Positions 2,558 to 26,154 of a stretch of 26,903 bases of DNA are shown piece after piece; position 1 is the stretch's first letter, and each line of letters opens with the position of its first letter. The stretch lies in the IMG/VR virus record IMGVR_UViG_3300050821_001288, positions 1-26,903 of that record; one strand, written 5' to 3'. A model generated the notes under the pieces. The model saw nothing but the letters and a program-made list of their open reading frames with translations. It did no database searches and was not told where the DNA came from. The position numbers and the translations under genes are program-made. Origin of the DNA: a virus.

Positions 2558-5500
2558 TTAAACGCCGATGGCGAGGAAGCACACGTTGGCACTGGCTGAA
2601 GTGTTTGCGTGGAAGGTTCCGTTAGTGAAGGACTGTAGAGTTGTAACAACAGCGGCACCACTTGGATCGATAGCTGTTAGTTGAACACTGTAAGCATTTG
2701 TTACGAATGTCTTAGGCCATGCGAATGATGTAGAAGTGGTAGTAGAAGCCATTACGCCCCAAACCATGAGCAAGCCATTTGTCAAATAACTATAACCGTT
2801 TACCGCCTGAACTTGAGCGAATGAGGTTGAGTTAATTGACGTATTGACTGTTGAGTTGCCGATACTTAGGATCGATCCCGCACCAGCACCACCTAGTGTG
2901 AGGGTCGTAGAGTTGGCAACAGTGTTTACAGTTGAGTTACCAACGCTGATGGCTGTCGTATTGATCGTCACGTTATTCGTTGACGCACCAACCTCAAGAG
3001 TTGTTGTAATAACTGGTGCAGACGTATTTGCATAATTAGATGCAGCCAATCCACCAAGATTTGTCGCATTGTTTGCTGTGGCATTATATACAGTCGAATT
3101 AACTGTTGAAACAACTGTTGAGTTGCCAATAGACATCGTACCAGTTGTTGTGTTCCAAACTAGGTTTGCGTCTCCACCGAAGGCACCTGAGTTATTGAAC
3201 TGAAGCTGTGTATTGGCACCGCCAGGAGTTCCACCGCCACCGCCGCCAGTTGTCCAGTAGACATTGCCTGTTGTGCCACCAGATGCAAGTACCTGTCCAG
3301 ATGTACCGTAACCACCGTTTGCCTGGATGGTATTTGTTACGGTAACAGAATTTGCAACGATGCTATTGACAACTAATGAAAGTCCACTAATAGCTGATGT
3401 GCCAATTGATAGTGAAGTTGAATTTAGAGAAGTATTTACCGTTGAGTTACCAAAGAATATAGCTGACGTGTTTACAATTACGTTTGCACCAACGGCAAGA
3501 GTTGTTGTGATAACTGGTGCGGAATTATTTGCGTAACTCGTAGAAACCAATCCGCCTAGGTTTGTTGCATTGTTAGCTGTTCCTGAATAGATCGTTGAGT
3601 TAACTGTAGATTTTACAGTTGAGTTGCCCAATAGGATCGCAGTTGTGTTTACAGTTACGTTATTACCTGATGCACCAACTTCAAGAGTTGTTGTGATAGT
3701 TGGGGTAGATGTGTTAGCATAACCAGACGCAGCCACACCACCTAGGTTTGTTGCATTGTTTGCGGTCATAGTTGCAACGTTAGCTGACAATCCTGCTGTA
3801 GTTAGGTAACTTGTAGAAGGTACACCACCTAGATTTGTTGCATTGAATGCGATACCAGAGAAGGCAGTTGAATTGATTGTTGAGTTAACTGTTGAGTTGC
3901 CAATGAATAGAGCACCTGCATTCAATGACAATGAAGTTGAAGTGTTAACTGTTGAGTTACCACTCCAGTAGTTCATCACCAAGTTCGCACCAGTGATCGT
4001 TGTGTTCTGTGTTGTGTTTACGACACCACTGACTACAAGGTTGGCGATCATGTTCAATGAGGCAGCAGTTCCACCAGTGTTTACGGTCATGCCCGTTGAA
4101 TTAATCGAAGTGTTAATTGATGAGTTACCAACTAGAAGGCCAAGAGGAGTTAATACGAGATTTGAAGTCGCATTACCCAAAGTCATTCCGGCAGTTGCGG
4201 TATTCCAAGTTAGGTTGGCATCACCACCGAAGCTTCCTGACGCGTTGAACTGAATTTGGGTATTCACGCCCCCAGGAGTGCCACTACCACCGCCACCAAG
4301 CTTCCAGTAAGCGTTAGCACCTGCTCCACCGCTGGTTAGGACGTATGAAGCGGTACCGACTGATCCGTTAGCTGAAATCTGTCCAGGGAATGCGGTCACA
4401 CTTGAGTTTGTAGTGAATGCAGCCGTTGAATTGCCGATTGTGATCGCTGTCGTGTTAATCTGGTTAACAGCACCAACGTTCGCACTGGTTGAGAATGTAG
4501 CAACTGAGGTATTCGCATAATTTGCGGCAGCTAGACTACCGAGATATTGCGCATTATTAGCTGATCCAGTGAATGCTGCTGATGTGATGGTTGAGTTGAC
4601 CGTTGAATTACCAATGGTCATCGTAGCAGTAGCTGTGTTCCAAGTTAGGTTGGCGTCACCAGACTCAACTCCTGAATTGTTGAAGGCGATCTGAGTGTTG
4701 GTGCCAACAGCACCAGCAGGCAATGTCGTCCAATAGTCGTTACCTGCACCACCTGAAGTCAACACCTGACCCGCAGTACCCACACCACCGTTTGCTGTGA
4801 TGCGTGTGCCGATCACAACGTTGGCGATGGATAGTGTTGTTGAGTTGGCTGTGGCATTAACCGTTGAGTTACCAACAGTTAGGCTATTGGCAGTCAAGAC
4901 AGTGATAGTAGCGGCTGAAGTGTTAGCATAACTTGCCGCAGGAACACCGTTCAGGTTAGTTGCGTTATTAGCTGTACCTGTGTAGTTTGTTGTGTTGATG
5001 GTTCCAAATACGGTTGTGTTGCCAAAGAAGATAGCAGTTGTATTTGCAATGACGCCATTTGAGAAGCCAGAACCAACCTGAATAGTACCGGAAATAACTG
5101 GTGCAGATGTATTTGCATAAGATGCAGCAGCAAGACCACCGAGAGATAGAGAGTTGTTCGCTGTTCCCGTGAATGATGTTGAGGTAACCTGAGTGTTAAC
5201 TGTGCTATTACCAACACTCAATAGGGCACTTGTATAATTCCAAGTTAGGTTAGAGTCTCCTGACTCGACTCCTGATTTGTTGAAAGGAATCTGAGTGTTT
5301 GAGCCAGTTGCGCCCGTAGTAATAGTCGCCCAATAGGCATTTGCGCCTGCACCACTTGAAGTTAGAACCTGTCCTGCTGTACCGTTTGATCCGTTAGCTG
5401 AAACAACAGGAGGTATTGCCAAGTAAGTTGAATTGGCAACAATGTTAACTGATGAGTTACCAATTGTCAATGAGGATAGGTAAGCTTGCCATGTGTTGCC

Positions 5501-8500
5501 GAACTGACCGAGAGCATATGAGGTATCCAATGTTGGGATAATGTCGCCCTGGACTAGAGCATTACCGGGACCGATAGACACCGTTCCATTAAGAGCAGAG
5601 TTGCCATTTACAGATAGACCTGACGCTGACACACTTGAAGAGTTAATAGAAGTGTTTACAGTTGAGTTGCCGATTAGAAGTGTTGAAGTGTTAAGACTTA
5701 CATTTGATCCGACATTTACAGATGTAGTGATTACTGGTGCAGAGTTATTTGCATAACTTGAAGCAGGTAGACCACCAAGGTTTGTAGCGTTATTAGCTAT
5801 TCCGGTCCAAGCAGTTGAGTTAATCGTAGAATTAACTGTTGCATTACCGATGTTGATGGCTGTTGTATTGATTGTGACATTATTTGAAGCAGCACCGACT
5901 TCAAGAGTTGTAGTGATAATTGGTGCAGAGTTATTTGCATAACTAGCCGCAGGCAATGATCCAAGGAATGCAGCACTGTTTGCTGTTAGAATGGCACCCG
6001 AGAAGGCAGTTGAGTTAATCGTACTGAAGACGGTTGAATTACCCATCTTGATTGTTGTTGTATTAACTGTGACGTTATTGCCTGCTGCTCCGACTTCAAG
6101 AGTTGTAGTGATTACAGGAGCAGATGTATTTGCATAACCGCTAGGAGCTACGCCACCAAGGAAGTTCGCATTATTTGCAGTTAGGGTAGCGACTGTTGCA
6201 GCTAGACTTCCACCACTTACGAAGCTTGCTAGGTTTGCAGCCAATTGAGCATTTGAAACAACGTTTGCCGCAGATACCGTACCGACGAAGAGCGTGTTGT
6301 TTGCAGTTAGGGTAGCGACTGTTGCAGCTAGACTTCCGCCACTTACGAAGCTTGCTAGGTTAGCTGCAAGCTGTGCGTTTGAAACGACATTAGCGGCTGA
6401 CACTGTTCCAACGAAGTTTGTGTTGTTTGCAGTTAGAGAACCTACGACACTTGGCATTGCCACTGTAGTCTGATAAGCTCCGAGGTTCGCAGTCAACTGC
6501 GCGTTTGAAACGACATTAGCGGCTGAGACTGCTCCGACGAAGAGGGTGCTATTTGATGTCAGAGTCGTTACGTTTGCAGCCAAACCTGCTGTTGTCTGAT
6601 ATGCAGTCAAACCTGCTGTAGTTGTATAGTTAGCTAGGTTAGCAATAAGCTGTGCGTTTGAAACAACGTTCGCAGCAGGGAGACCGCCAACAAGAGCGGC
6701 AGAACCACTGAATGAAGTTGAGTTGATTGAAGCATTTACAGTTGAGTTACCAATTGTATGCATAGTCGTGTTGATGACAGTTGATTGTGTTCCATCAGTA
6801 ATAAGCAATGAACTTGTTGCGCCTGATATTACAACTGTACTGACTGCGTTATTAGCAAGGATCAAGCCTGCCTGCGTTGCTTGGGTGTATGATGTTGCAT
6901 TTCCTGTTGCGAATTTTGATGCAGACATAACACTTGTGACTGTACCATTAGTTGCAACAAACTCATTAGTTAATGCATAAACGTTTGCACCTACTGAAAT
7001 GTTTGCAGTGAAGACAGGAGCAGATGTATTGGCATATGAAGCAGCGGCAAGCCCACCGAGGAATAGAGCATTATTAGCTGTGTTGGCTGTTGTAGCGTTA
7101 TTAGCATTAAGAGCGGTTGCAATAGTGCCACTGAATGAGGTTGAATTGATTGTTGAGTTAACTGTTGAGTTACCAATTACGATCTGATTGTTCTGAACTG
7201 CAACCGTGTTACCAGTCGATCCAACTGTCATTGTTACATTAGATGACTGCCATGTGAAGTTTGCATCGCCTGTTTCCGTACCAGCATTGTTATATGCGAT
7301 CTGATTGGGGTTGCCGTACACGCCATTTCCAGAGCCACCATTAGCACTGATGGTTGCCCAATATACGTTTGAGCCAGGACCGGCAGATACCAATGCCTGA
7401 CCTGTTAGACCGACAGAACCGTTAGCAACAACGATGTTTGGAACCAAGTTGGCAATTGTCAACTGAGCGTTCGTCATTACGGCTGAACCGATAGACAATG
7501 CAGATGTGTTGACCGTTACGTTGGCACCGACTGTAACCTTTGTTGTGAAGGCACCGTTTGAAGTGTTGGCTACAGAAGCCGCAGGAAGTGTTCCAATGAA
7601 TGCGGCAGAGTTCGCAGCCAATAGAGCTACGTTTGCTGCTAGTCCTGCTATTGTCTGGAGAGGAGCAATGTTCGCAGCCAATTGTGCGTTTGAAACAACG
7701 TTCGCAGCAGAAGTAGTACCCACAAATAACGTGTTGTTAGCCGTAAGAGTTGTTACGTTCGCGGCCAAACCTGCTGCTGTCTGGAGAGGAGCAATGTTCG
7801 CGGCCAATTGTGCGTTTGAAACGACATTAGCGGCTGACACTGTTCCAACGAATAGAGTGTTATTAGCTGTAAGAGTTGTTACAGCAGCAGACAAACCTGC
7901 TGTGGTTGTATAATTGGCTAGGTTTCCAACCAACTGACCGTTTGAAACAACGTTCGCGGCAGAGGTAGCTCCAACGAATAGGGTGCTGTTTGAAGTTAGA
8001 ACACCAACGGCAGCAGCCATGCCGCCAGTAGTCTGATAACTAAGCAAGTTACTTGATAGCTGAGCATTGGAAACAACGTTCGCAGCAGAGGTAGCTCCGA
8101 CGAATAGGGTGTTGTTGGCGGTAGCTGAATAGATCGTTGAGTTAACAGTTGCGGTGCCAACTGATATGGTGTTGATTGAAGCGGTATTAGCAACGAGATT
8201 CACAACAACCGCGTTAGAGGTATTTGCGTAACTGGCAGCAGGAATGCCGCCGAGGTTCGTTGCATTATTAGCTGTTAGGGCAAATGTTGAATTAGCAATC
8301 GTTCCAGAAAAAGATGTTGAGTTAATTGTTGAATTAACTGAAGCATTACCAATTGTGACGAATGAATTGCCTACTACGACGGTACTGGTTATAGCACCAA
8401 CAGTTAGAAGGCCATTAGATGTCTGCCATGTGAAGTTTGCATCACCTGTTTCGACGCCATTTGCATTGAAGGCGACTTGATTAGGATTACCATAAGGTCC

Positions 8501-10282
8501 GCCAGTACTGTTACCACCACCGCCATTGCCTGTACCTGCACCCCAATAAACGTTTGAGCCAGGACCACCAGATAGAAGTGACTGGCCAGGAAGACCGACA
8601 ATACCGTTTGCAATGATGATTGCAGTGATTGTGTTTGCAACGTTCAGGGTTGTCGTTGTAAGGCTGTTACCACTCAATAGGGTAGATGGACTCATAAAGA
8701 GCATTGAGGTGTTAACAGTTACGTTGGCACCGACAGAGAGGTTTGCAGAAATGACAGGTGAGGAATTATTAGCATAACTTGCCGCAGCCAATCCACCAAG
8801 GTGAGTCGCGTTGTTGGCAGTTAGGGCTGTGCCTGAGTAGCTCGTTGAGTTAATTGTGTTGTTGACGGTTGAATTGCCAACGGTTACGGCTGTTGAATTG
8901 ACGAACACGCTGTTTGCTACGCTACCGACCTGAACAGAGGTTACGATTGCGGGAGTTGATGTATTTGCATAACTAGCAGCAGGCAGACCACCGAGGTTCA
9001 GTGAGTTGTTAGATGTTAATGCGGCTACGTTTGCAGGCAAGCCTGCTGTGGTCTGGTAGTTCGCTAGGTTTGCAGTAAGCTGTGCATTTGATACAACGTT
9101 GGCTGCTGCTGTGGTGCCGACGAACTGAGCGTTATTAGCTGTTCCCGTGAAGGCAGTTGAGTTGATGATTGCGAATGTGCCAGAGTTACCGATCAGGATT
9201 GCATCTGAATTGAGTGAGACATTTGAAGTAGGACTTGATAGTACCGTAGATACCGAATTGCCCTGCTGGAATGCACTTGAGTTACCGATAAAGAAGGCAG
9301 TTGAATTGATTGTCGTGTTAACAAATGCGTTGCCCATTGAAAGGCCGTTTGATAGAATCAGATTACCGATAGTAGCATTAGCGATAGCTGCATTTGACGT
9401 ATTTGCATAAGAACTTGCTGGCAGACCGTTCAGGTTAACTGAATTGTTTACGGATAGGGTAGCAGCCTCTGCGTTCAATGCAGAAATTGTGATATAGTTC
9501 GCTAGGTTTGCAGTCAACTGGGCATTTGATACTAGGTTCGCCGCAGAAACACCACCGATGAATAGGGAGTTGTTGGCTGTTCCTGAATATGAAGTTGAAT
9601 TCATTGATGCGTTAACGGTTGAGTTGCCAACGGTCACGGCAGTTGAATTTACGAGGACGTTATTACCAACATTGCCCACTTCAAGTGAAGTTACGATTGC
9701 AGGGGTGCTTGTGTTCGCTACGGAGCCCGCTGGCAGGCTTCCGATGAATGCAGCACTGTTTGCTGTCAGAGCGGCTACAGCGGCTCCTAGGGTCACTGTA
9801 GGTTGATATTGAGCGAGGTTAGCCGCAAGCTGAGCATTAGAGACCACATTAGCCGCAGGAAGGGCACCGACGAACAGAGCACTGTTAGCCTGACCACTGA
9901 ATGCGGTTGTGTTGACTGTGGCACCTACTGTTGAGTTGCCGACCGTGATTGTGTTTGAAATGTTAAGGGATAGGAATCGATCAGTCGTGTTGCCGATTAC
10001 TGCAACAGCGTCCGTTGCAGGGATAAGATTTCCACCTGCGTAGCCGCCACCTGCTGCAATGATAACGCCGTTAACAGCTACCGAAGTCGTGTTGATCACG
10101 ACGCCAGAAGAGTTTCCAACGGTGATGGTTGTTCCAACTACAAGTGGTACTGAACTGAAGAGATTTTGGACAGGAACAATAACATCGTTGCCTGATGCTG
10201 GAGACCAAGCAAGAAATTGGTCATTCGCGTCCGCATATGTCTTTGGCTGTATTTGTGATACAGGCGATGAATTGTTTGCCAA
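2558..10282 (-). CDS. Giant modular tail-fibre/adhesin protein, 2574 aa
   Basis: This 2574-residue protein is built almost entirely of repeats and has very few charged residues; Asn, Ser, Thr, Ala, Val and Gly dominate. Three module types alternate. Module A is '(N)LGGLPAASYANTSAPVITT', about 15 copies. Module B is 'FVGtvSAANVVSNAQLaANL', 11 copies with a 42-residue period. Module C is 'ANGsvGTAGQVLTSGGAG...YW', followed by 'NTQIqFNnSGvesGDANLTW', six copies. They are linked by 'GNSTVNSTINST' strands. Similar LGG..A..Y and 'QFN..G.F.GD..L.W' motifs occur in long tail fibres of T4-like and cyanophage type. The last 85 or so residues (GYSYLTNGLLMVWG..., ending FLAIGV) resemble the C-terminal receptor-binding domain of gp53-like tail fibres. 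The start is TTG at 10282, preceded by AAGGAAGAG; no ATG fits better. I infer a long trimeric fibre for host recognition. Function is strongly suggested but the exact fibre class is open. Confidence 0.8.
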   Translation of the reverse strand: MANNSSPVSQIQPKTYADANDQFLAWSPASGNDVIVPVQNLFSSVPLVVGTTITVGNSSGVVINTTSVAVNGVIIAAGGGYAGGNLIPATDAVAVIGNTTDRFLSLNISNTITVGNSTVGATVNTTAFSGQANSALFVGALPAANVVSNAQLAANLAQYQPTVTLGAAVAALTANSAAFIGSLPAGSVANTSTPAIVTSLEVGNVGNNVLVNSTAVTVGNSTVNASMNSTSYSGTANNSLFIGGVSAANLVSNAQLTANLANYITISALNAEAATLSVNNSVNLNGLPASSYANTSNAAIANATIGNLILSNGLSMGNAFVNTTINSTAFFIGNSSAFQQGNSVSTVLSSPTSNVSLNSDAILIGNSGTFAIINSTAFTGTANNAQFVGTTAAANVVSNAQLTANLANYQTTAGLPANVAALTSNNSLNLGGLPAASYANTSTPAIVTSVQVGSVANSVFVNSTAVTVGNSTVNNTINSTSYSGTALTANNATHLGGLAAASYANNSSPVISANLSVGANVTVNTSMLFMSPSTLLSGNSLTTTTLNVANTITAIIIANGIVGLPGQSLLSGGPGSNVYWGAGTGNGGGGNSTGGPYGNPNQVAFNANGVETGDANFTWQTSNGLLTVGAITSTVVVGNSFVTIGNASVNSTINSTSFSGTIANSTFALTANNATNLGGIPAASYANTSNAVVVNLVANTASINTISVGTATVNSTIYSATANNTLFVGATSAANVVSNAQLSSNLLSYQTTGGMAAAVGVLTSNSTLFVGATSAANVVSNGQLVGNLANYTTTAGLSAAVTTLTANNTLFVGTVSAANVVSNAQLAANIAPLQTAAGLAANVTTLTANNTLFVGTTSAANVVSNAQLAANIAPLQTIAGLAANVALLAANSAAFIGTLPAASVANTSNGAFTTKVTVGANVTVNTSALSIGSAVMTNAQLTIANLVPNIVVANGSVGLTGQALVSAGPGSNVYWATISANGGSGNGVYGNPNQIAYNNAGTETGDANFTWQSSNVTMTVGSTGNTVAVQNNQIVIGNSTVNSTINSTSFSGTIATALNANNATTANTANNALFLGGLAAASYANTSAPVFTANISVGANVYALTNEFVATNGTVTSVMSASKFATGNATSYTQATQAGLILANNAVSTVVISGATSSLLITDGTQSTVINTTMHTIGNSTVNASINSTSFSGSAALVGGLPAANVVSNAQLIANLANYTTTAGLTAYQTTAGLAANVTTLTSNSTLFVGAVSAANVVSNAQLTANLGAYQTTVAMPSVVGSLTANNTNFVGTVSAANVVSNAQLAANLASFVSGGSLAATVATLTANNTLFVGTVSAANVVSNAQLAANLASFVSGGSLAATVATLTANNANFLGGVAPSGYANTSAPVITTTLEVGAAGNNVTVNTTTIKMGNSTVFSTINSTAFSGAILTANSAAFLGSLPAASYANNSAPIITTTLEVGAASNNVTINTTAINIGNATVNSTINSTAWTGIANNATNLGGLPASSYANNSAPVITTSVNVGSNVSLNTSTLLIGNSTVNTSINSSSVSASGLSVNGNSALNGTVSIGPGNALVQGDIIPTLDTSYALGQFGNTWQAYLSSLTIGNSSVNIVANSTYLAIPPVVSANGSNGTAGQVLTSSGAGANAYWATITTGATGSNTQIPFNKSGVESGDSNLTWNYTSALLSVGNSTVNTQVTSTSFTGTANNSLSLGGLAAASYANTSAPVISGTIQVGSGFSNGVIANTTAIFFGNTTVFGTINTTNYTGTANNATNLNGVPAASYANTSAATITVLTANSLTVGNSTVNATANSTTLSIANVVIGTRITANGGVGTAGQVLTSGGAGNDYWTTLPAGAVGTNTQIAFNNSGVESGDANLTWNTATATMTIGNSTVNSTITSAAFTGSANNAQYLGSLAAANYANTSVATFSTSANVGAVNQINTTAITIGNSTAAFTTNSSVTAFPGQISANGSVGTASYVLTSGGAGANAYWKLGGGGSGTPGGVNTQIQFNASGSFGGDANLTWNTATAGMTLGNATSNLVLTPLGLLVGNSSINTSINSTGMTVNTGGTAASLNMIANLVVSGVVNTTQNTTITGANLVMNYWSGNSTVNTSTSLSLNAGALFIGNSTVNSTINSTAFSGIAFNATNLGGVPSTSYLTTAGLSANVATMTANNATNLGGVAASGYANTSTPTITTTLEVGASGNNVTVNTTAILLGNSTVKSTVNSTIYSGTANNATNLGGLVSTSYANNSAPVITTTLAVGANVIVNTSAIFFGNSTVNTSLNSTSLSIGTSAISGLSLVVNSIVANSVTVTNTIQANGGYGTSGQVLASGGTTGNVYWTTGGGGGGTPGGANTQLQFNNSGAFGGDANLVWNTTTGTMSIGNSTVVSTVNSTVYNATANNATNLGGLAASNYANTSAPVITTTLEVGASTNNVTINTTAISVGNSTVNTVANSTTLTLGGAGAGSILSIGNSTVNTSINSTSFAQVQAVNGYSYLTNGLLMVWGVMASTTTSTSFAWPKTFVTNAYSVQLTAIDPSGAAVVTTLQSFTNGTFHANTSASANVCFLAIGV
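6175..6678 (-). repeat. Tandem 126-bp repeats in fibre gene, array 1
   Basis: Plus-strand units begin at 6175, 6301, 6427 and 6553, an exact 126-bp spacing (42 codons). The first two units are nearly identical for the first 60 bp (ttgcagttagggtagcgact onward). They encode module B around residues 1200-1370. The last unit carries an extra ~14-residue insertion. Confidence 0.85.
7600..8130 (-). repeat. Tandem 126-bp repeats in fibre gene, array 2
   Basis: The string gtctggagaggagcaatg occurs at 7653 and again at 7779, 126 bp apart, within about four consecutive module-B copies (residues ~720-895). Copies at 7653-7696 and 7779-7822 differ by only one base. Confidence 0.8.
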
Positions 10283-11064: not shown

Positions 11065-13317
11065 TTAATATCCGCAACGTATAGTTAGGAGGCCAGGATT
11101 TTCTGTGAGTGTTGTACCGCCGCCCCACTGAAGAAGAATGAGCCCCTTCATCCATAGAGGGAAGTCAGTATATACTTCACCAGATGATGCGCATGATCCT
11201 GGCAACTGATACCCTTGAGAACTCATTCCACCTGTTGTTGGTGTGAGGTCTGAGATTGGAGTAGCAGAAGTTAGGGTTGATGTTGAATAATTCCAACCCA
11301 TGCATTTAGTAACCATATCGAAACCGTTGCAGTTTGGAGCACCAACCCAATTTGCCAACAAATCTGTCGTATTTGTATAGGCTGGTGAGGTAAATGTCTG
11401 TGATGTACCAAGCATGGCAGACGTTCCATTTGCGCCCGTGTTATCGCCAGTGTCGCAGAATGATAGGAGACAAGCTGACATGTTGCCTTTGAACACATTA
11501 GTAGTGTTTGTATAGGTTCCTGATGCAGCTACGTTTGGACCATAGATAAATGCATTCACTGACTGACCTGCAAGTCCAGCATTACCACTAAGTGAGGCTG
11601 AACCAATTGATATGTTTGTTCCCAGACCCGACGTGGCTGCTAAGGTTATGATCGTGCCTGACCCTGATGAAGCAGTTAGAGTGTAAGTCCCACTTAGTGT
11701 TGGTAGTAATGTAAGACCGTCATTGGTGCTTGTTCCACCATAAACGCCCGATACTGTAAAGTTTCCACTTGGTGATGCTCCTGCTGGAGCAGAGGAGAAT
11801 GGAAGAATAAGCACGCCACTTGATGAAACGTAATAACCACCAGAAATGATAATTCCTGTGCTATTAGTTAATGTCATCGTGCCAAGTCCTGTTGGGGCTT
11901 GAAGGTTGAGAACGGTACCAGAACCAGATACCGACGATACAGGCCAATTTCCAGTTAATGAGCCAACTGATCCGGTACCAGCAAAGCCACCTGTTCGAAT
12001 GACACCACCAGCCGTGATGGCTGCACCAAATGGTGCGGAAGAGAATGTTTCTGCCAAAATTCCAGTCGTAGAATTGTATGTCGCAGAAAGAACAGTGATT
12101 TCGTTCTCCGTATTTGCTGATCCATTGCTTGCAAGAGGCTGGTAAGCGATATTATTTGTGATCGTATATTGATAAGACGGTGGATTTTCAGCAGAAGGAT
12201 TAATTGTTATCTCACCGTCAATGAAGTCCGTTCCTGTGAACAAGTTGTTTCTATAGCATGTGAAATTCTCAATATGAATTGGAATAGTGTCAGCGTGCTG
12301 ACTCTGCTCTTCGACGTTGAGGCAGTGACGATCTCCACTCCATCCCATATTATTCGTAAAGACAAATTGAGTCTCAACATTGTGATTGTCTGGACTGTCG
12401 ATTAGGAAATCCTCAGTATCCGAATGAATTCTGCATATTGGATTTTGGTTCGCATAAGAGAAATTACCAGATACGAAGAAGTGTGTTCCTGCGGTCGCAT
12501 CGAAAATGCCGGGACTTACGACATCGATTGCTCCTAGACAGATGGCGTCTTGCGCGGCATTCTGAGCAATGCTACCGACTGTTGCGAAGTAATCTCCACC
12601 ATTAGTATCGGTAGGCGATGCACCATAGCCACAGTCGTCTGTATCATAGCCTTGTCCAGCATTCGTAACAATATCATTGACAAACGCCACATGATGAACC
12701 ACCGTTGATGTTGTTAGGCAAGCGTCAAGCTGGAAGCCTCTGGATTGGTTTCCGTTACCATTACAGGTCCAGCTAATAACTGCCCAATAGTTAGTACCAA
12801 TGTTCATGCAGGCAGAAGTGGCACCTCTACCGCCAGAGCCAACGTGCCCACCATTACATACTGCTGTTGAACAATTAATGTTACATCCATTAGTACCTAG
12901 GTCAGTTCCTCCGCAAAGTAGAATTGCAAAGCTAATTCCTCCAGTTCCGTCGATACCGCCTGTAGTTGAAGGACAATTCGACACGGCTCCCCACGTAGCG
13001 AAGTCGCCATTATATGTTCCTTTTGCAGCAACAATTACGTCACCACAATTCAATGCGTGATTTACTGTTGCCCAAGGAGTAGTTTGACTTGTTCCATTAT
13101 TTGAGTCACTTCCTGCACTCCATCCTGATGGTGGAGACGATGCGGGGGCTATATAATGAATAACATCACTGGTTGGTAAAGAAAATGCATTTCCGCCAGT
13201 ACTAACTTGAATAGTAATTGTAAAACTGTCGGTTACCGCATTTGAAATTGGAACTAACAGACCAATGAGAGCAAATACGGTCATGAATGTCATTAAGAGA
13301 TATTTTGGGAAGTTCAT
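11065..13317 (-). CDS. Exported cysteine-rich beta-helix protein with duplicated inserted domain (750 aa)
   Basis: I choose the ATG at 13317. The ORF opens further upstream, but that part lies inside the preceding gene, whereas from 13317 the protein begins with a textbook signal peptide: MNFPKY, a hydrophobic core (LLMTFMTVFALIGLLVPI), then a SNA/V cleavage site near residue 27. Residues ~55-100 contain SAGSDSNNGTSQTTPWATVN and ALNCGDVIV, the start of a pectate-lyase-like right-handed beta-helix. Residues 100-400 carry many paired Cys (GCNINCSTAVCNGG, for example) and helix-coil strands. Residues ~405-488 and ~494-578 are two diverged copies of one beta-domain, each with FSSAP and a later SGSGT(V/I)-(T)GLGT. 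Residues ~610-750 form another Cys-containing domain. Cysteines plus a signal peptide imply an oxidising compartment (periplasm or outside). A glycan-active or glycan-binding role is inferred. A signal peptide is unusual for a tail spike. Confidence 0.7.
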   Translation of the reverse strand: MNFPKYLLMTFMTVFALIGLLVPISNAVTDSFTITIQVSTGGNAFSLPTSDVIHYIAPASSPPSGWSAGSDSNNGTSQTTPWATVNHALNCGDVIVAAKGTYNGDFATWGAVSNCPSTTGGIDGTGGISFAILLCGGTDLGTNGCNINCSTAVCNGGHVGSGGRGATSACMNIGTNYWAVISWTCNGNGNQSRGFQLDACLTTSTVVHHVAFVNDIVTNAGQGYDTDDCGYGASPTDTNGGDYFATVGSIAQNAAQDAICLGAIDVVSPGIFDATAGTHFFVSGNFSYANQNPICRIHSDTEDFLIDSPDNHNVETQFVFTNNMGWSGDRHCLNVEEQSQHADTIPIHIENFTCYRNNLFTGTDFIDGEITINPSAENPPSYQYTITNNIAYQPLASNGSANTENEITVLSATYNSTTGILAETFSSAPFGAAITAGGVIRTGGFAGTGSVGSLTGNWPVSSVSGSGTVLNLQAPTGLGTMTLTNSTGIIISGGYYVSSSGVLILPFSSAPAGASPSGNFTVSGVYGGTSTNDGLTLLPTLSGTYTLTASSGSGTIITLAATSGLGTNISIGSASLSGNAGLAGQSVNAFIYGPNVAASGTYTNTTNVFKGNMSACLLSFCDTGDNTGANGTSAMLGTSQTFTSPAYTNTTDLLANWVGAPNCNGFDMVTKCMGWNYSTSTLTSATPISDLTPTTGGMSSQGYQLPGSCASSGEVYTDFPLWMKGLILLQWGGGTTLTENPGLLTIRCGY

Positions 13318-13331
13318 TTTCTTATATGCCC

Positions 13332-13646
13332 TTAACTTGCTGATAAAGTTATTGAATATGAACCAGCAGCGACATTGGCCGATCCAACGGTTAAATTGCA
13401 AGGATAATTCCCACTATTTGATAATGCGAATAGTCCTGCGTTAGTCCCACCGAGAGTAATCGGAGTATTCGGCACTTGACCGGGAGGACTCGTTATTACT
13501 GTGACGTTTCCAATCGTATCATTAGCATTCAACGCTGGCATGTTTAACAAAGTGTTAGATAAGCCAACAGCGAGAACTACTGGCCCTGTTACGAATTGAG
13601 CCGTAAAACTTACTGAACCATTTGAAAAGTTTAAGTTAAAAGACAC
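13332..13646 (-). CDS. Small Ig/cadherin-like beta protein (GTG start, or preceded by an in-frame TAA)
   Basis: The 104-residue open part ends in the pattern TPITLGGTNAGLFALSNSGN followed by AGSYSITLSAS. That matches the last strands of cadherin/Ig-like repeats ('F.l...G.l.v...l.aGsYsitv.A'). The likely role is a surface-exposed virion decoration or fibre-connector domain. The start is uncertain. The best ATG (13673) lies 12 nt after a strong AGGAGG but reads only eight codons (MSNSYIGQ) before TAA at 13649-13647. GTG at 13646 follows directly in the same frame. The choices are re-initiation at GTG, stop readthrough, or a recent nonsense change or sequencing error. The next gene starts 15 nt after its stop. 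Confidence 0.6.
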   Translation of the reverse strand: MSFNLNFSNGSVSFTAQFVTGPVVLAVGLSNTLLNMPALNANDTIGNVTVITSPPGQVPNTPITLGGTNAGLFALSNSGNYPCNLTVGSANVAAGSYSITLSAS

Positions 13647-13673
13647 TTACTGTCCAATATAGCTATTTGACAT
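13647..13673 (-). other. Eight-codon leader ORF in frame with the Ig-like gene
   Basis: ATG at 13673, encoding MSNSYIGQ, then TAA, immediately followed in frame by GTG of the next ORF. AGGAGG lies 12 nt upstream of the ATG. It could be a true leader peptide or the original N-terminus of the Ig-like gene. Confidence 0.5.
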
Positions 13674-13707: not shown

Positions 13708-13715
13708 TATTTATT
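13708..13715 (-). promoter_or_regulatory. Late promoter candidate AATAAATA
   Basis: Minus-strand AATAAATA 35 nt upstream of ATG 13673, serving the Ig-like/beta-helix/242-aa genes. It lies only 9 bp from the -35 box of the divergent plus-strand promoter. Confidence 0.6.
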
Positions 13716-13724
13716 CGAGCCCGC

Positions 13725-13753
13725 TTGACATCCCGGATTCCTTGTGGTAGGGT
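13725..13753 (+). promoter_or_regulatory. Sigma70-type (early) promoter TTGACA-17-TAGGGT
   Basis: Perfect -35 TTGACA at 13725-13730, a 17-bp spacer and a weaker -10 TAGGGT at 13748-13753. It is 25 nt upstream of the chosen start of the peptidase-like gene. Confidence 0.65.
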
Positions 13754-13778: not shown

Positions 13779-14192
13779 ATGGACGACATGATGACCCTCC
13801 CCCCTGATAACAAAGTCGGCCCCAATTGCGGCGTGACGTGCGTTGCGATTGCTGCTGGAGTCACTTTCGAGAAAGCCTGGAGAACGTTACGACCAATCCG
13901 TCGTGGTGGACGTGGCAGGTGGAACGGAGCCACGAGCCACTCCGAGCGAAAGAAGGCTCTCGATGTACTCGGTGTCAAGTACAAGCAATTGAAGGATAGC
14001 GACACCTATCACTGCACCCTCAGGGGCCTTTACGACAAATATCTGAGGACAGGAAAGCTCTATATGGTTCGCACTACTGGCCACGTCCAGATGGTCAGGA
14101 ATGGCCTTATTCTGGATCAGAGTGGTCTGCATAATATGGAGGGATGGCGTGCCCGTAAACGCGTCAGGGACGTTCTTTTGATAGGAGAGTGA
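13779..14192 (+). CDS. C39/papain-like cysteine peptidase-like small protein (137 aa)
   Basis: The start at 13779 is chosen because AAGGAG (13766-13771) lies 7 nt upstream; the ATG at 13773 would be too close, and longer forms would include the promoter. The protein has GPNCGVTCVAIAAGVTFEKA near the N-terminus (putative nucleophile Cys17 before a helix). Later come GHVQMVRNGLILDQ (His102, Asp113), a layout seen in C39-like and other papain-fold peptidases: Cys ... 'GH.v.v..g...D'. I infer a peptidase or a related cysteine-dependent fold; activity is not proven. It is the first gene behind a sigma70-type promoter, on the strand opposite to the virion genes, so early expression is likely. It overlaps nothing and is followed by a second small gene 1 nt after its stop. 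Confidence 0.65.
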   Translation: MDDMMTLPPDNKVGPNCGVTCVAIAAGVTFEKAWRTLRPIRRGGRGRWNGATSHSERKKALDVLGVKYKQLKDSDTYHCTLRGLYDKYLRTGKLYMVRTTGHVQMVRNGLILDQSGLHNMEGWRARKRVRDVLLIGE

Positions 14193-14193
14193 A

Positions 14194-14388
14194 ATGCGAA
14201 ATCTTATTCCAATTGGTCCTTATGACAAGCTTGTTTCGTCCGTTAGAATTGCCAACAAGCTTTTGGTATTCACTGAACGTGGACGAACGTTTTGGGTAGA
14301 ACCATTCACAGCGGAAGTGACTGAAATTGTGAGGCCGTCAGAGACCGACGATCAGGGCGACCAAGACGGCGAACGAAACAGCCAGTAG
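14194..14388 (+). CDS. Small uncharacterised protein, 64 aa, co-transcribed with peptidase-like gene
   Basis: The ATG follows the TGA of the peptidase-like gene after one base, with TAGGAGAG upstream, so the two are expressed together. The first ~45 residues look like a small beta-sheet domain (VSSVRIANKLLVFTERGRTF). The C-terminal ~17 residues are acidic and polar (SETDDQGDQDGERNSQ). The last 51 nt overlap, in opposite orientation, the 3' end of the membrane coiled-coil gene. No family recognised. Confidence 0.6.
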   Translation: MRNLIPIGPYDKLVSSVRIANKLLVFTERGRTFWVEPFTAEVTEIVRPSETDDQGDQDGERNSQ

Positions 14389-20516: not shown

Positions 20517-22367
20517 TTATTTTTTAGAGGCTTTCACCTTAGCGAGTCGTGCAGCTACGTCTCTGATCTTACGGGTATCCCCAGATGTTCTCTTTTCCTG
20601 AGGAATCTGGCCAATAGCCTTCAAGACACCCTGAGTAGGTGCAAGCTTCTCTTCGCGGTCCATTTGCTTCTGGGCCATCTTATCCTGCATCTGCATTTTC
20701 TGCATCTCGCCTGCTTGCTTCTGCATATCAGCATCATTCTGCTGCTGCTGCATTTCAGCTTCCTGATCCTGTATACCCTGCTCATGTGCCTGATCTTCCT
20801 GAGCCATTGCTTCTTCAGGGGTTGGTTGATTATAGATTGGATTCTGCATCTCTTCCATAATCTCCATTGTCATCTCTTCGATGTCATCGTCTGTTTGTTT
20901 GAAGATATTGCGACGGACCCAACGGTTTGAAACATACTTTCCAATGATGCCAGTTTGTGCTAGACCGTCATAGGACTGGACGCGCATCTGGAGGATTTGC
21001 TGATCCTTAAGCTCTGCGAAATGGTTGTCCTGGGCGAACTCGTACTTGATCTGGCGTTCAATTGACTCGAACTCTTCAAGTGACATGATCCCGCGAAGGA
21101 CGCATTGCTTCTTGAGGGTGTCGCGGAATAGAAGCGAGAAGTCGGACTGAATGCGCTTGATAAACTTGTTGAACTTGACTTCTGCTCTTGAAATCTCAGA
21201 TGAGTTACCGATGTCGAATGGGTCTGACTGAAGACGCTCAATAGGCACGTTCAATGAATTATATAATAGCTTCTGGAAGTACACGATGTCATCGATCTGA
21301 CCCAGTGTCTGGCCAGCGGGAAGGGTCTCTACCTTCGTTCCAGAGCCATCTGCACGGCGTGGAAGCCAGTAGTCTTCAGTCATTGTCAAGAACTTACGTG
21401 AGTCTTGGATGGCCCCTGTATCAGCGTCATAGATCAGCTTGTTCTTCTGGTTGATCATGATGTCTCGGACAGCTTGGTCAGCCTTCAATGGCGGCAAGCC
21501 AGTTACGTCAACGTACCAAACACGACGCTCAGGGGCACGTGCGAGGCGGTAGATGACCAACGAGTCTTCGATGGTCTTTAGCTGTGATAGGATTTTGATA
21601 GCCTTCGTTAGATATCCCAAGCCCATTGTGGTATTGGTATCTGATAGGCCAGATGGAACGTGGACAACTGAGTCCTTCGAAATACGGACGCCCTGAGTTG
21701 CCATGCCACCGAAACCAACTTGGTAAGGTGCCTTGGCAGCGAAACCACGGTCATTATATAGATAATAGAGAGTTTTGGTCTGGTGGACTGCGGCTACCGC
21801 ATTCATATCGGTACCACCCTCGATACGTTTTTGAGCTACCTCTTTGATTTCTCTAATCTTTCGAGGATCGACATAACGCATCTCCTTGATGCCTTCCTCA
21901 AGATGCTTAGGATCAGTCACCGCATGGTAATAGAGACGACCGTCAACGTACCAACGACGGAAGACCCAGTAACCCTTGCGATTGAAATCCAGCATCTCTA
22001 AGATTTCATTATGAAAATCCTGTAGGACGCGCTTGCCATTCTCGTCTAATATCTTGACATCCGAAAGATCAAGCTTGACAACATAGTCGTCTTCTGTTGT
22101 AATAGCTTCGTTAGTTATTTCATCAACGGCGTTGTCAATCTCGGTCTGGGTACACATGTCACGATATTTGGTGACAAGATCGGCCTCTGCCTTAATAACG
22201 CCCTGCATATCGAGGAACATGCCAGAAGTAAACGAAGAGGCAATAACTGCCGCTGTACTTTCTGAATCTCTATCAACGAATGAGATTGCTTGATTGGCAA
22301 CGGGTTCGTTCTTGAGGTAGGAGGGGTCTCTTCTAAAGAACTCAAAGCCCCAAATTTTCACTGCCAT
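20517..22367 (-). CDS. gp20: Portal vertex protein (T4 gp20-like), 616 aa
   Basis: This forms the dodecameric DNA entry and exit ring and nucleates head assembly. Family blocks are visible: TEIDNAVDEITNEAI, RRWYVDGRLYYHAV, LRYVDPRKIREIKE-type (MRYVDPRKIREIKEV), VHVPSGLSDTNTTMGLGYLT, RLARAPERRVWYVDVTGLPP and GSGTKVETLPAGQTLGQIDD, with FDIGNSSEISRAEVKFNKFI towards the end. It is longer than T4 gp20 (524 aa), mostly because of a C-terminal tail of about 100 residues. That tail has a Gln/Met/Glu-rich low-complexity segment (~515-575) and a basic end (ARLAKVKASKK). The start ATG has a purine-rich AAGGAAAACCA upstream, and an AATAAATAA motif sits 27 nt before it. Confidence 0.96.
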   Translation of the reverse strand: MAVKIWGFEFFRRDPSYLKNEPVANQAISFVDRDSESTAAVIASSFTSGMFLDMQGVIKAEADLVTKYRDMCTQTEIDNAVDEITNEAITTEDDYVVKLDLSDVKILDENGKRVLQDFHNEILEMLDFNRKGYWVFRRWYVDGRLYYHAVTDPKHLEEGIKEMRYVDPRKIREIKEVAQKRIEGGTDMNAVAAVHQTKTLYYLYNDRGFAAKAPYQVGFGGMATQGVRISKDSVVHVPSGLSDTNTTMGLGYLTKAIKILSQLKTIEDSLVIYRLARAPERRVWYVDVTGLPPLKADQAVRDIMINQKNKLIYDADTGAIQDSRKFLTMTEDYWLPRRADGSGTKVETLPAGQTLGQIDDIVYFQKLLYNSLNVPIERLQSDPFDIGNSSEISRAEVKFNKFIKRIQSDFSLLFRDTLKKQCVLRGIMSLEEFESIERQIKYEFAQDNHFAELKDQQILQMRVQSYDGLAQTGIIGKYVSNRWVRRNIFKQTDDDIEEMTMEIMEEMQNPIYNQPTPEEAMAQEDQAHEQGIQDQEAEMQQQQNDADMQKQAGEMQKMQMQDKMAQKQMDREEKLAPTQGVLKAIGQIPQEKRTSGDTRKIRDVAARLAKVKASKK

Positions 22368-22392: not shown

Positions 22393-22403
22393 CTTATTTA
22401 TTA
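22393..22403 (+). repeat. 11-bp direct repeat flanking the plus-strand cassette (copy 1)
   Basis: CTTATTTATTA, identical and in the same orientation to 23370-23380. Both copies contain the late-promoter motif, so the repeat may simply be that motif. Confidence 0.6.
22394..22402 (-). promoter_or_regulatory. Late promoter candidate AATAAATAA for portal
   Basis: Minus-strand AATAAATAA 27 nt upstream of the portal ATG, back to back with the plus-strand sigma70-type promoter (10 bp to its -35 box). Confidence 0.65.
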
Positions 22404-22412
22404 GGAGAGGGC

Positions 22413-22441
22413 TTGACAGGAGCTTCGACAAGTGCTACATT
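22413..22441 (+). promoter_or_regulatory. Strong sigma70-type (early) promoter TTGACA-17-TACATT
   Basis: Consensus -35 TTGACA at 22413-22418, a 17-bp spacer and -10 TACATT (22436-22441), followed 39 nt later by the ATG of the acidic protein. It is oriented against the late genes. Confidence 0.75.
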
Positions 22442-22480
22442 CCATCCTGTGACGATTTACCCCAAACATGGAGATTGATT

Positions 22481-22918
22481 ATGGTTGACTTTGAAGATTT
22501 CGGTAGCGATGATTGTGATTGTGCTTCTTGCCGTCCAGAACTTTATCCTGCCGAGGTTTTGGGCCTGCCCTTCACTGCTCCCGTGGACAATGATGACGAT
22601 GCCCCCGCCGATGTGGATGAAGTTTTTGATGCGATCTTTGGCCTTTCTGATGAAGAGCTTGAAGCGTTGTACCCCTACAACGTGAACTTCAATGAGGACG
22701 AAATTCGCTCGATTAGTGCTGCACTACGCGTTCAGGGCACCTCTCTTGCTGAGAACGTGAGAACCGTTCTTAATCCAAAGATGGATGATGTCACGGACCT
22801 TCTATCTGACGAGGCTCTTGACGATGTGTCGCGCATTATTGTCGAAGCTCTCGATGAGAGTGTGAAGTGTCTCAATCTTTATAACTGGTTTGGTGACAAC
22901 TTCGGCATTCGCGAGTAA
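22481..22918 (+). CDS. Highly acidic small protein, 145 aa, unknown, early-type expression
   Basis: The start at 22481 has GGAG (22470-22473) 7 nt upstream; longer forms would run through the promoter. I count about 36 Asp/Glu against 8 Lys/Arg, so the protein is very acidic. The N-terminus has a small Cys cluster in an acidic context (DDCDCASC), then Asp-rich segments (DNDDDAPADVDEVFDAIFG), then predicted helices (DDVTDLLSDEALDDVSRIIV) and an aromatic end (LYNWFGDNFGIRE). Family not recognised. Its stop overlaps the next ATG (TAATG), so the two are coupled. Being early-type, small and acidic inside the late block, it resembles accessory anti-host genes; a DNA-mimic role is speculation. Confidence 0.7.
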   Translation: MVDFEDFGSDDCDCASCRPELYPAEVLGLPFTAPVDNDDDAPADVDEVFDAIFGLSDEELEALYPYNVNFNEDEIRSISAALRVQGTSLAENVRTVLNPKMDDVTDLLSDEALDDVSRIIVEALDESVKCLNLYNWFGDNFGIRE

Positions 22919-23295
22919 TGCGTCTCATCGAAGAGGCTCGATTATTAGCCGCAGAGGTTGAAGGTCGAGCCGCTGCCAAGAAACTGGCAGAGGAAAAGAC
23001 ACAGCGTGAATGGGAGTACCAACACGCTGTCGATATGCTTGCCAACATGAAGGCCGAACTGAAGGAAAAGGTTCTGGAAGCGGCACGCAAAGGCAATCGT
23101 TCGATTTCGTTGTCAATCTACTCGTGGTCGAGCACGGGACGCCCATATTGGGTCATGTATTTCAAAGGGCCATTTGAGAATTATCTAAACGACGAGGGCT
23201 TCGGTTTCGACTTTCAGGAGAAGATTGCCGAGACTCGCACTCACACTCGTGCTATGCCACAAGATGATTGCGGCTGGTATGTTATTTCTTGGTAA
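22918..23295 (+). CDS. Small helical/beta protein, 125 aa, unknown
   Basis: Residues 1-60 form a charged Ala/Glu/Lys-rich helix, probably a coiled coil (EEARLLAAEVEGRAAAKKLA, then LANMKAELKEKVLEAARKG). Residues ~62-125 look like a small beta domain with conserved-looking aromatic positions (SISLSIYSW, PYWVMYFKGPF, GWYVISW). The ATG overlaps the stop of the acidic protein, implying coupled production and possibly a complex. The stem-loop terminator begins 4 nt after its stop. I do not recognise a family. Confidence 0.68.
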   Translation: MRLIEEARLLAAEVEGRAAAKKLAEEKTQREWEYQHAVDMLANMKAELKEKVLEAARKGNRSISLSIYSWSSTGRPYWVMYFKGPFENYLNDEGFGFDFQEKIAETRTHTRAMPQDDCGWYVISW

Positions 23296-23298
23296 AGA

Positions 23299-23324
23299 AA
23301 AGGGGGGCTAAAAAGCCCCCCTTT
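23299..23324. terminator. Bidirectional stem-loop terminator between convergent genes
   Basis: Perfect 11-bp stem AAAGGGGGGCT / AGCCCCCCTTT around an AAAA loop (positions 23299-23309 and 23314-23324). It lies between the 3' end of the plus-strand cassette and the 3' end of the tail tube gene, so it can end transcription from both sides. The U-tracts are short. Confidence 0.8.
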
Positions 23325-23369
23325 AGTTCGCGTCCCTATTATATGTTTTTATGGTGGGACGTTTGTATT

Positions 23370-23380
23370 CTTATTTATTA
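23370..23380 (+). repeat. 11-bp direct repeat flanking the plus-strand cassette (copy 2)
   Basis: CTTATTTATTA, identical to 22393-22403. It overlaps the tail tube stop codon. Confidence 0.6.
23371..23379 (-). promoter_or_regulatory. Late promoter candidate AATAAATAA downstream of gp19 (no late gene directly behind)
   Basis: Minus-strand AATAAATAA overlapping the gp19 stop codon. The next thing downstream is the stem-loop and then the antisense strand of the plus-strand cassette. Confidence 0.5.
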
Positions 23381-23998
23381 CGTTGCTTGAGCATATGTTG
23401 TGGCATTGCCCTTTGCACCTTCAAGTGCAGGAACCATTGTGTCGAATGACACGGTAACAGGGAATTCCATAATGCGGTTGGTGTTGTCCCAATCAAGAGT
23501 CATTTCACCAATAACGCGAGGCCAAGCTCCAATCAGCGTGTACTGACGGATCGTTGATGTATCCTTGCCGTAGTGACTGATTGTCCAGTTTGACTTGTAA
23601 TTCTCTTCAGTGAAGCCCGCTAGGGTATTTGAAGGAGAAGTTGCGTCTTCTGAAGCAAGCATATCGTTTGAAACGAGTGAGTTGATTGAGTTATTCCAAG
23701 CCTCAAACATTGCACGAGTGTTGTAGTCCTCGTCCAACATAACCTGAATACGCCAGTCGTCCCATACACGATCACCAGATGATTTGATCTTACGACCAAA
23801 GTAAGGAATTTCTGCAACGCCTAGGGCGAAAGCAGGAATTGAAGCGGCTTTGCAGGTGAACTGAAGCTTCGCTGTTGAGGAGGGATCAATCGACCCCGCC
23901 AATACACTTGGCAAAGTTGCCTGAATGTCGAACTTTGAAGGACGTGCGCCCCCGTAGATCAAACCTTCCGCCAAGAACTGTCCTATATCAAAACCCAT
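23378..23998 (-). CDS. gp19: Tail tube protein (T4 gp19-like), 206 aa
   Basis: This is the stacked-hexamer inner tube of the contractile tail. The pattern fits the family: N-terminal positively charged ARPSKFDIQATLPSVL, then LQFTCKAASIPAFALGVAEI, PYFGRKIKSSGDRVWDDWRI, QVMLDEDYNTRAMFEAWNNS, and a C-terminal FPRVIGEMTLDWDNTN-like stretch (seen as WPRVIGEMTLDWDNTN) before the final strands. Length is near T4 gp19 (163 aa) with a longer middle loop. It lies next to the sheath gene, as in T4. AAGGAGAT precedes the ATG, and the promoter motif overlaps the sheath stop codon. Confidence 0.95.
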   Translation of the reverse strand: MGFDIGQFLAEGLIYGGARPSKFDIQATLPSVLAGSIDPSSTAKLQFTCKAASIPAFALGVAEIPYFGRKIKSSGDRVWDDWRIQVMLDEDYNTRAMFEAWNNSINSLVSNDMLASEDATSPSNTLAGFTEENYKSNWTISHYGKDTSTIRQYTLIGAWPRVIGEMTLDWDNTNRIMEFPVTVSFDTMVPALEGAKGNATTYAQAT

Positions 23999-24020: not shown

Positions 24021-24029
24021 TTATTTATT
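24021..24029 (-). promoter_or_regulatory. Late promoter candidate AATAAATAA for tail tube
   Basis: Minus-strand AATAAATAA 23 nt before the gp19 ATG. The sheath stop codon (24025-24027) is inside it. Confidence 0.7.
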
Positions 24030-26154
24030 GAGTTGGCTCAATGGTTGAGAAACTAATACCAGTTGGGGTATTAACATAAGTGATCTTGATGAAGTTAATA
24101 CTCTTCGCAGGCTGGATGTAGATAGAGCATAGGAACTCATTCGCATCGATAACGTCTGGAGTGTTAACCGTACTGTCACAAACCACGTCGAAGTTGATGA
24201 TGCCACCTGAACCCTGGATATTACTTAGGTAAGGTGTAACCAAGTTCTTGAACTGGTTCTGAGTGAATACGTCGTTTAGCTCGAATAGTGTGTACTGAGC
24301 AGCGAACTTAATAGCACGCTCGACAACCAAGAACAAGCGACGAACATTGATACGACTGAAGCCTGTTGGCTGGATCGTGAATGTCTTATCTCCGTAAAGG
24401 TACGTGCCCTGTCCAGGGAATGTAACCACAGGGTTAATAGCCTGAGGATAGATAAGGTCGCGGTCTGACTCTTGTGGGTTGTAAGCAAGCTGGATAACGT
24501 TACTGATCTGGCCACGGTTGAAACCGGCTGGTGACTCCCATGGATAGCCAACATTGTCAGTGTATACGCAGAGACCTGCAACGTCGCCATTGAGAGGAAC
24601 CCAACGATTAACGTTGTTATACTGGTCGTACTGAAGCTTGTAGCCTGAGTCCATTGTTGCGTAGGTTGATGATGGAAGCAATGAAGCCCAGTTAATCAAG
24701 TCTGTTGCTTCGTTACCAGCATTGTTGATAACTGTGCCTGAGTCTGGTGAGAAGCAGAGCAAGCAGTCACGACGTGTCTGGACAATGTTTGAAATCAACC
24801 ACTGTGCCATACCGAAGTTGTTGTATGTCGTACTAAGCTGTCCAGCGACTGCTGATTGACCCAAAGGCTTGCCAGCGATAACAAGATCGATTGTGATCGT
24901 CTCGACGCCCTGGAACATAACCCAACCGTTAATCAATGTGCCCATAGGAGCAGTTGACTCTGAGTCGCCGTCCTGACCACCACTGAATACCTGATCGAAT
25001 GGAACTGAGCCATTTGTTACGGCAACCAATGAGCCTGAGTTAGCTGAAAGCGCACCAGTTAGGTCGTTAACATTCCAGACCCACTTTGACTGCTGGTTGA
25101 TTACGTTTCTGTAGTAGTTTGTTGTACCGTCACTGTTTAGTGCGTCGATAGAACGAGAAACGTTTTCGTAAATCTCAAGAACAGTGTTTGGAACACCTGA
25201 GATGTTGCCAGCATTGTCCACAACGATAACCTGAACGAGGTCAGCAACGCCTGGATTAGTTGAATGTGTCTGATATGGTGAAGTCCATGAAGCAGGAGGA
25301 GTAACTTGCTTGTAGTACTCCCATAGACGCTCAACTGTTGAAATCTGAAGATTTCCGCCACTGTTGTAAGGCTTACTGAAGTTAACAGTCATACTTGTTA
25401 CAGTTGCGTTTGTTACTGCGTTAGAGAATGCAGTTGTCTGAAGGTACTGGTAAGGATTACCGCGAATACCTGTTGTAACCTTCCAGTAGTCGCCTACTGA
25501 GAACGAGTTAACCAAGGTGTTGGCGAATGTGTTACCGGCAGGAACAGATGAACCACCAGCAGCGATGAATGACAATGTGCCTGAATTGGCACCTGAGTTC
25601 AATGAAAGCTGGCCAGTGTATGAGTTACCCTGAGATAGCCCACTTGTGATCGTGCCAGACAAAGAAACGTTTGAATGGTACTGATTAGCTGAAGAGCACT
25701 GTCCAAGAGCCAGAGAGTTGCCTAGGAAGCCTGATGGCCACTTTGCTACGTAGTTGACTGTTGAAGGCCAGCCGCCTGTCTGTGCCTGATGAGCCTGAGT
25801 TGTCTTGTTCAAGACAACTGAAGAAAGGATATCATTTGAAGAGAAGCCGGTACCAACGACAGCGTTCAATGCGCAGTTTGCTGTACCTGAGGTTGTATTA
25901 GCGGTACGAACAACGTATAGCTGATTACCGTATTCAAGGAAGTTGAAAGCTGAGAACCATGTCTCATAGTTCCAGCCCATTGGCTCACCGAAATATGTGG
26001 CTAGGAGTGACTGAGAACCGACTGGGAAAGGCTGAAAGAGTGGACCCCAAGCGAAAATGCCAGCGATAGCACCTGTCGTTGAACCAAGATTAGGTACAGT
26101 TACGCTGTAGTCTTGCTCGACATTATAGACTCCGGGTGAAATTGGGAAAGTCAA
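24025..26154 (-). CDS. gp18: Contractile tail sheath protein (T4 gp18-like), 709 aa
   Basis: This is the subunit of the contractile outer tail. The N-terminus FPISPGVYNVEQDYSVTVPN with TTGAIAGIFAWGP is the typical 'SPGVy..E.D.s..v....ts.a...G.f.WGP' sheath opening. The C-terminal sheath domain is clear: FLVVERAIKFAAQYTLFELN, NQFKNLVTPYLSNIQGSGGI, DFVVCD-type (NFDVVCD), DANEFLCSIYIQPAKSINFI. Length is slightly above T4 gp18 (659 aa); the middle (~160-260) is a Ser/Asn/Thr-rich variable insertion. The start codon is TTG at 26154, with AAGGAGAAG upstream, and no nearby in-frame ATG fits better. Confidence 0.96.
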   Translation of the reverse strand: MTFPISPGVYNVEQDYSVTVPNLGSTTGAIAGIFAWGPLFQPFPVGSQSLLATYFGEPMGWNYETWFSAFNFLEYGNQLYVVRTANTTSGTANCALNAVVGTGFSSNDILSSVVLNKTTQAHQAQTGGWPSTVNYVAKWPSGFLGNSLALGQCSSANQYHSNVSLSGTITSGLSQGNSYTGQLSLNSGANSGTLSFIAAGGSSVPAGNTFANTLVNSFSVGDYWKVTTGIRGNPYQYLQTTAFSNAVTNATVTSMTVNFSKPYNSGGNLQISTVERLWEYYKQVTPPASWTSPYQTHSTNPGVADLVQVIVVDNAGNISGVPNTVLEIYENVSRSIDALNSDGTTNYYRNVINQQSKWVWNVNDLTGALSANSGSLVAVTNGSVPFDQVFSGGQDGDSESTAPMGTLINGWVMFQGVETITIDLVIAGKPLGQSAVAGQLSTTYNNFGMAQWLISNIVQTRRDCLLCFSPDSGTVINNAGNEATDLINWASLLPSSTYATMDSGYKLQYDQYNNVNRWVPLNGDVAGLCVYTDNVGYPWESPAGFNRGQISNVIQLAYNPQESDRDLIYPQAINPVVTFPGQGTYLYGDKTFTIQPTGFSRINVRRLFLVVERAIKFAAQYTLFELNDVFTQNQFKNLVTPYLSNIQGSGGIINFDVVCDSTVNTPDVIDANEFLCSIYIQPAKSINFIKITYVNTPTGISFSTIEPTQ

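Follow-up and report, generated by a model that had tools for sequence, protein, structure and literature searches.

Small accessory genes set between the conserved genes of T4-like phages have been described in several forms. One form, the PeSL element, is known from T4-type phages (Arbiol 2010, Comeau 2014; cited in PMC4503421); in the wording of the title cited there, these are "composite conserved promoter-terminator motifs", in which the promoter and the stem-loop make up one motif. In T4, segD is a homing endonuclease gene that lies backwards between genes 23 and 24 (PMC2988022). Homing-endonuclease insertions are found between gp19 and gp20 in Rhizobium phage RHph_I1_18 and, as endonuclease-like ORFs, in L193, L223, and L070, and Caulobacter phage Cr30 has a block of small reverse-strand genes between its terminase and gp18 genes.

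The locus described here is a fresh example of this already known kind of phage early-gene island, and it resembles each of these systems in part. As with PeSL, an early promoter and a stem-loop accompany small accessory genes that lie between conserved T4-like genes; measured against that title, however, this promoter and stem-loop are ~0.9 kb apart and flank two genes, the unit is present in a single copy in the sequence analyzed, and the stem-loop is probably older. Like segD, it is counter-oriented in a late head-gene block, but its two genes (ORF1 and ORF2) were not endonucleases by any library search and have their own early-type promoter. The insertion place is that of the gp19-gp20 homing-endonuclease insertions, which differ in being co-oriented with gp19 and gp20 and of endonuclease type. 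The likeness to the Cr30 block, small reverse genes in a T4-like late block, is one of gene layout; the Cr30 block occupies another junction and has unrelated genes.

A counter-oriented gene pair in the late block

The window, by which we mean the whole stretch of DNA that was analyzed (26,903 nt), is a fragment (26.9 kb) of a T4-like phage, and its late block lies on the minus strand. A preliminary description of this DNA reported two coupled plus-strand genes, a sigma70-type promoter (TTGACA-17-TACATT), and a perfect 11-bp stem-loop within that block, between gp19 and gp20. All of these were recovered in our analysis, and the identities of gp19 and gp20 were confirmed by PHROG and Pfam matches. 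The features of the region are as follows.

24025-26154, minus strand: gp18, late block
23378..23998, minus strand: gp19, tail tube (phrog_45, 3.9e-40)
23370..23380, minus strand: putative late promoter TAATAAATAAG that overlaps the stop codon of gp19; no other late motif of the window lacks a downstream ribosome site and start codon
23331..23361, minus strand: first hairpin, weak (CGTCCC/GGGACG) and with an A-rich loop, CATAAAAACATATAA; it lies between the late promoter and the putative terminator
23299-23309/23314-23324, minus strand: 11-bp hairpin AAAGGGGGGCT/AGCCCCCCTTT, then TTTTCTTT on the late strand; terminator-like for transcription from the gp19 side
22918..23295, plus strand: ORF2 (125 aa), which is coupled to ORF1 and weakly matches phrog_3012, a family of unknown function
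22481..22918, plus strand: ORF1, an acidic protein of 145 aa (pI 4.05) with CxCxxC at its N terminus, matching no family
22413..22441, plus strand: early-type promoter TTGACA-17-TACATT, host sigma70, extended -10
22393..22403, minus strand: putative gp20 late promoter TAATAAATAAG, in a back-to-back arrangement with the early promoter, 9 nt from its -35; gp20 ATG 27 nt downstream
20517..22367, minus strand: gp20, portal (phrog_213, 3e-162; PF07230, 7e-146)
Down to 15338, minus strand: gp21, gp22, and gp23, after gp20

We consider it likely that the two accessory genes of this unit form a lineage-specific island, expressed early via the host sigma70 polymerase and placed backwards in the late head/tail block. 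It would then be a clean case of a T4-like phage placing accessory early genes inside a rigid late block, one in which the insert's own parts (promoter, two genes, and extra late promoter) can be told apart from a hairpin that probably pre-existed.

The early-type promoter was assigned by a pattern match and by its conservation in a relative, IMG/VR contig 3300021405_000042, in which the hexamers, the TGC, and the leader are kept but not the 17-nt spacer, which has diverged. In the whole window, TTGACA-N14-TGNTANNNT is matched twice (0.01 expected), and the promoter at 22413 is not due to chance. As TGC directly precedes TACATT, giving an extended -10, the promoter is predicted to be stronger than was first described. 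It appears to be an early promoter of host type directed against the late genes, which is the arrangement of an early-gene island.

The gp19-gp20 junction in other phages

In contig 3300021405_000042, gp19 and gp20 are encoded at 96% protein identity and homologues of both ORFs are present at the same junction (ORF2 65% and ORF1 55% identical). Together with a third contig, L003, which ends inside ORF2, the unit is known from three contigs. Neither ORF was found in other viral contigs, in 50,697 phage records, or in bacterial genomes, with the exception of one weak partial match to ORF2. Both were also absent from about 147 more distant gp19-gp20 junctions (isolates and IMG/VR) among the matches listed. 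Gaps of >200 bp were present in 12 of the 147 distinct junctions, one being the clade relative itself, and the uninterrupted gaps had a median of 63 bp (range 19–129). As the distant junctions lack these genes and are typically this short, the island appears, from these comparisons, to be a lineage-specific, counter-oriented insertion. Inserts at the other junctions were co-oriented with gp19 and gp20, several of them being endonuclease genes or endonuclease-like ORFs, and a counter-oriented insert was seen in this clade only, among the matches listed. The nearest non-clade portals in those matches are ~50% identical, so that the insertion is not finely datable.

Two kinds of co-oriented insert recurred at this junction in other phages: homing-endonuclease-like genes in L007, L070, L193, and L223, and a common ORF of 135–140 aa (MANQL...) in L043, L045, L083, and L088.

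Flanking late promoters and possible mobility

The unit had earlier been read as a PeSL-like mobile cassette, whose promoter, genes, and stem-loop move as one through recombination between late-promoter copies. We regard this reading as unlikely. The identical 11-bp repeats on which it was built are exact at 22393-22403 and 23370-23380, and exact repeats also flank the unit in the relative. Furthermore, a deletion between the 11-mers would leave ~33 nt between gp19 and gp20, which falls within the range of the uninterrupted junctions. However, TAATAAATAAG is present on the minus strand of the window in two exact and six one-mismatch copies (eight versus 0.41 expected), and 11 of the 12 minus-strand matches to AATAAATA, which include two overlapping at one promoter, have both a ribosome site and a start codon in the next 80 nt, the sole exception being 23370-23380. 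It is on this basis that the 11-mer, by its motif, appears to be the ordinary late promoter of the phage. Its double occurrence would then be expected whatever the history of the locus, and the repeats, although exact, are weak evidence of a duplication. A deletion between them would also take out a hairpin of a kind that 58 of 133 uninterrupted junctions carry.

Other observations relevant to mobility were mixed. ORF1 has a higher silent-site divergence from the relative (pS 0.80) than gp19 (0.38) or gp20 (0.43), but u111 and u165 are as diverged as ORF1, and we therefore rejected this divergence as a sign of transfer. No copy of the unit was found elsewhere in the window, in the relative, or in the sequence collections searched. 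The promoter-leader is present once in the 26.9-kb window and once in the 31-kb relative, and it is the promoter type, not its sequence, that recurs at 13725. A comparison of gp19-gp20 junctions had been proposed as a check on mobility, and its outcome was equivocal: every close contig spanning the site has the unit and every distant one lacks it, and a close relative with an empty site was not among the matches listed, which may not include all relatives at intermediate distance. Mobility by late-promoter recombination is thus a possible history of the island, but one that the generic nature of the 11-mers and the lack of a close empty site among those matches do not favor. Nor does the composite-motif definition, as worded in the title cited above, fit this locus, since the 22413-22441 promoter and the 23299-23324 hairpin are at opposite ends of ORF1 and ORF2. 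The stem-loop also looks older than the genes, and no second copy of the leader was found in the window or the relative.

Hairpins between gp19 and the island

Perfect stems of at least 11 bp occurred at a rate of 0.075 per shuffled window. All three clade contigs retain the T-run that follows the 11-bp hairpin on the late strand, whereas that on the island strand is short or missing. For this reason, the hairpin resembles above all a terminator of late transcripts coming from gp19, rather than one belonging to the island. Stems that are perfect, at least 7 bp long, and with at least three G-C pairs were found in the 58 uninterrupted junctions mentioned above versus 0.6 expected from shuffles, and in some of these junctions a late motif at the gp19 stop is followed by a hairpin, in the same order as in the window. 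As these junctions are free of the island, the hairpin and promoter beside gp19 are probably an old feature of the junction that predates it. The sequence of the hairpin differs among all three clade contigs, and it could instead have been renewed along with the island and not inherited. Between L003 and the relative, the hairpin stretch has 8 mismatches and ~8 indels in 95 nt, versus 8 mismatches in the preceding 1366 nt. Over 23299-23380 and the matching stretch of L003 and L004 the stems change fast, and the late promoter, the CATAAAAACATATAA loop, and the T-run are fixed.

We also considered that the 23370-23380 promoter and the two hairpins represent a late small-RNA gene of ~75 nt that the island merely adjoins, which is improbable. 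This reading draws on the promoter being alone among the late motifs in having no gene start downstream, on the strong fold (z -6.1), on the conservation of promoter, A-rich loop, and T-run in three contigs while the stems change, and on a sub-threshold resemblance to terminator-ended small RNAs in Rfam. However, all of the Rfam matches score far below their gathering cut-offs, and the first hairpin, which shows one paired change in L003, has largely lost its pairing in L004. Moreover, in relatives that lack the island the leader of gp20 is arranged in this same way, with a late motif at the gp19 stop and then a hairpin, so that the 23370 promoter and the hairpins may be a leftover leader.

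Perfect hairpins were found to be common at the gp19-gp20 junction of T4-like phages in general (L015-L094 and L185-L261), where they may lower expression of the portal relative to the tail tube.

Coding capacity of the island

A reading of the unit as a degraded insert, with plus-strand ORFs that are not expressed as genes, would be in keeping with their lack of a family assignment but is very improbable, as both frames, the promoter, and the ribosome site are kept in the relative and ORF2 has a dN/dS of 0.23. The unit is real, conserved, and under coding selection. ORF1 is preceded by a ribosome site (GGAG at 22470), and its overlap with ORF2 is a single base (TAATG).

Domain and profile library searches, Pfam and PHROGs among them, gave no family assignment for either protein, the weak phrog_3012 match of ORF2 aside. 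Insertion of a homing endonuclease was rejected, as no endonuclease domain was matched by ORF1 or ORF2 in Pfam, PHROGs, or PADLOC. The structure model of ORF1 was unusable (pLDDT 47). The model of ORF2 (pLDDT 76) predicts a long helix followed by a strand-helix-strand-strand arrangement, and its best viral match is an uncharacterised protein of Sinorhizobium phage phiM7 (E 5.7e-5). A likeness of ORF2 to Alba-like proteins was set aside; the PDB matches are weak (Z < 7) and of a common arrangement, and we therefore claim no function from them. Small early phage proteins frequently act on host targets or defences, and because of this our working guess is that ORF1 and ORF2 have a role in host takeover or counter-defence.

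A second island and the back-to-back promoter pair

The early pattern is matched at one further place in the window, 13725, and there, as at 22413, the -35 starts 9 nt from a late promoter that faces away. The features at this second site are as follows.

13708-13715, minus strand: putative divergent late promoter, by motif, beside the second early-type promoter
13725..13753, plus strand: second early-type promoter TTGACA-17-TAGGGT, 9 nt from the divergent late promoter
13779..14388, plus strand: two genes, ORFa (13779-14192) and ORFb (14194-14388), that make up the second counter-oriented island

Relatives of ORFa occur in Sphingomonas and Roseobacter phages, which hints that the host is an alphaproteobacterium. 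A looser pair, with a ~30-nt gap, heads a block of reverse genes in the relative (early-type promoter at ~13.07 kb, late promoter at 13.10 kb), and the same looser pair is present in contig 3300050821_000741 (6.8 kb).

Based on the promoter geometry, a late polymerase at the 9-nt sites would be expected to overlap the early promoter. We tentatively suggest that the back-to-back pair could be a reusable switch, in which the late polymerase covers the early promoter and shuts the island while starting the late gene. If this is true, early islands could sit in late blocks without an early-gene repressor, and the recurring pair offers a simple idea of how they are switched off; if occlusion is wrong, this would be an ordinary lineage-specific insertion. 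When IMG/VR was scanned for the composite late/early promoter, 83 DNA stretches were returned. Of these, 80 were looked at; most proved to be AT-rich contigs of non-T4 type, late motifs were not clearly in excess, and so the module is not callable as widespread on that pattern, which missed the relative because the base before its TTGACA is a G.

We propose that the ancestral junction probably consisted of gp19, a late promoter over its stop codon, the hairpin, and gp20, the promoter and terminator assignments being motif-based. The island (about 22404-23296) would have inserted between the hairpin and gp20, with the second late promoter, at 22393, driving gp20. In the early phase, the 22413 promoter would give rise to an ORF1-ORF2 mRNA. 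In the late phase, polymerase on the 22393 promoter may mask the early promoter next to it and so silence the island, and the hairpin would end gp18/gp19 transcripts before they run antisense into the island.

The minus strand of the window also has two very long ORFs without a PHROG match, at 2558-10282 (2574 aa) and 11065-13401 (778 aa). The latter follows, in a different frame, the gene behind the 13708-13715 promoter (13332-13673, minus strand). That gene begins with ATG, eight codons, and TAA, and then has an in-frame GTG (ORF 13332-13646); it represents either a broken gene, unusual decoding, or an assembly error.
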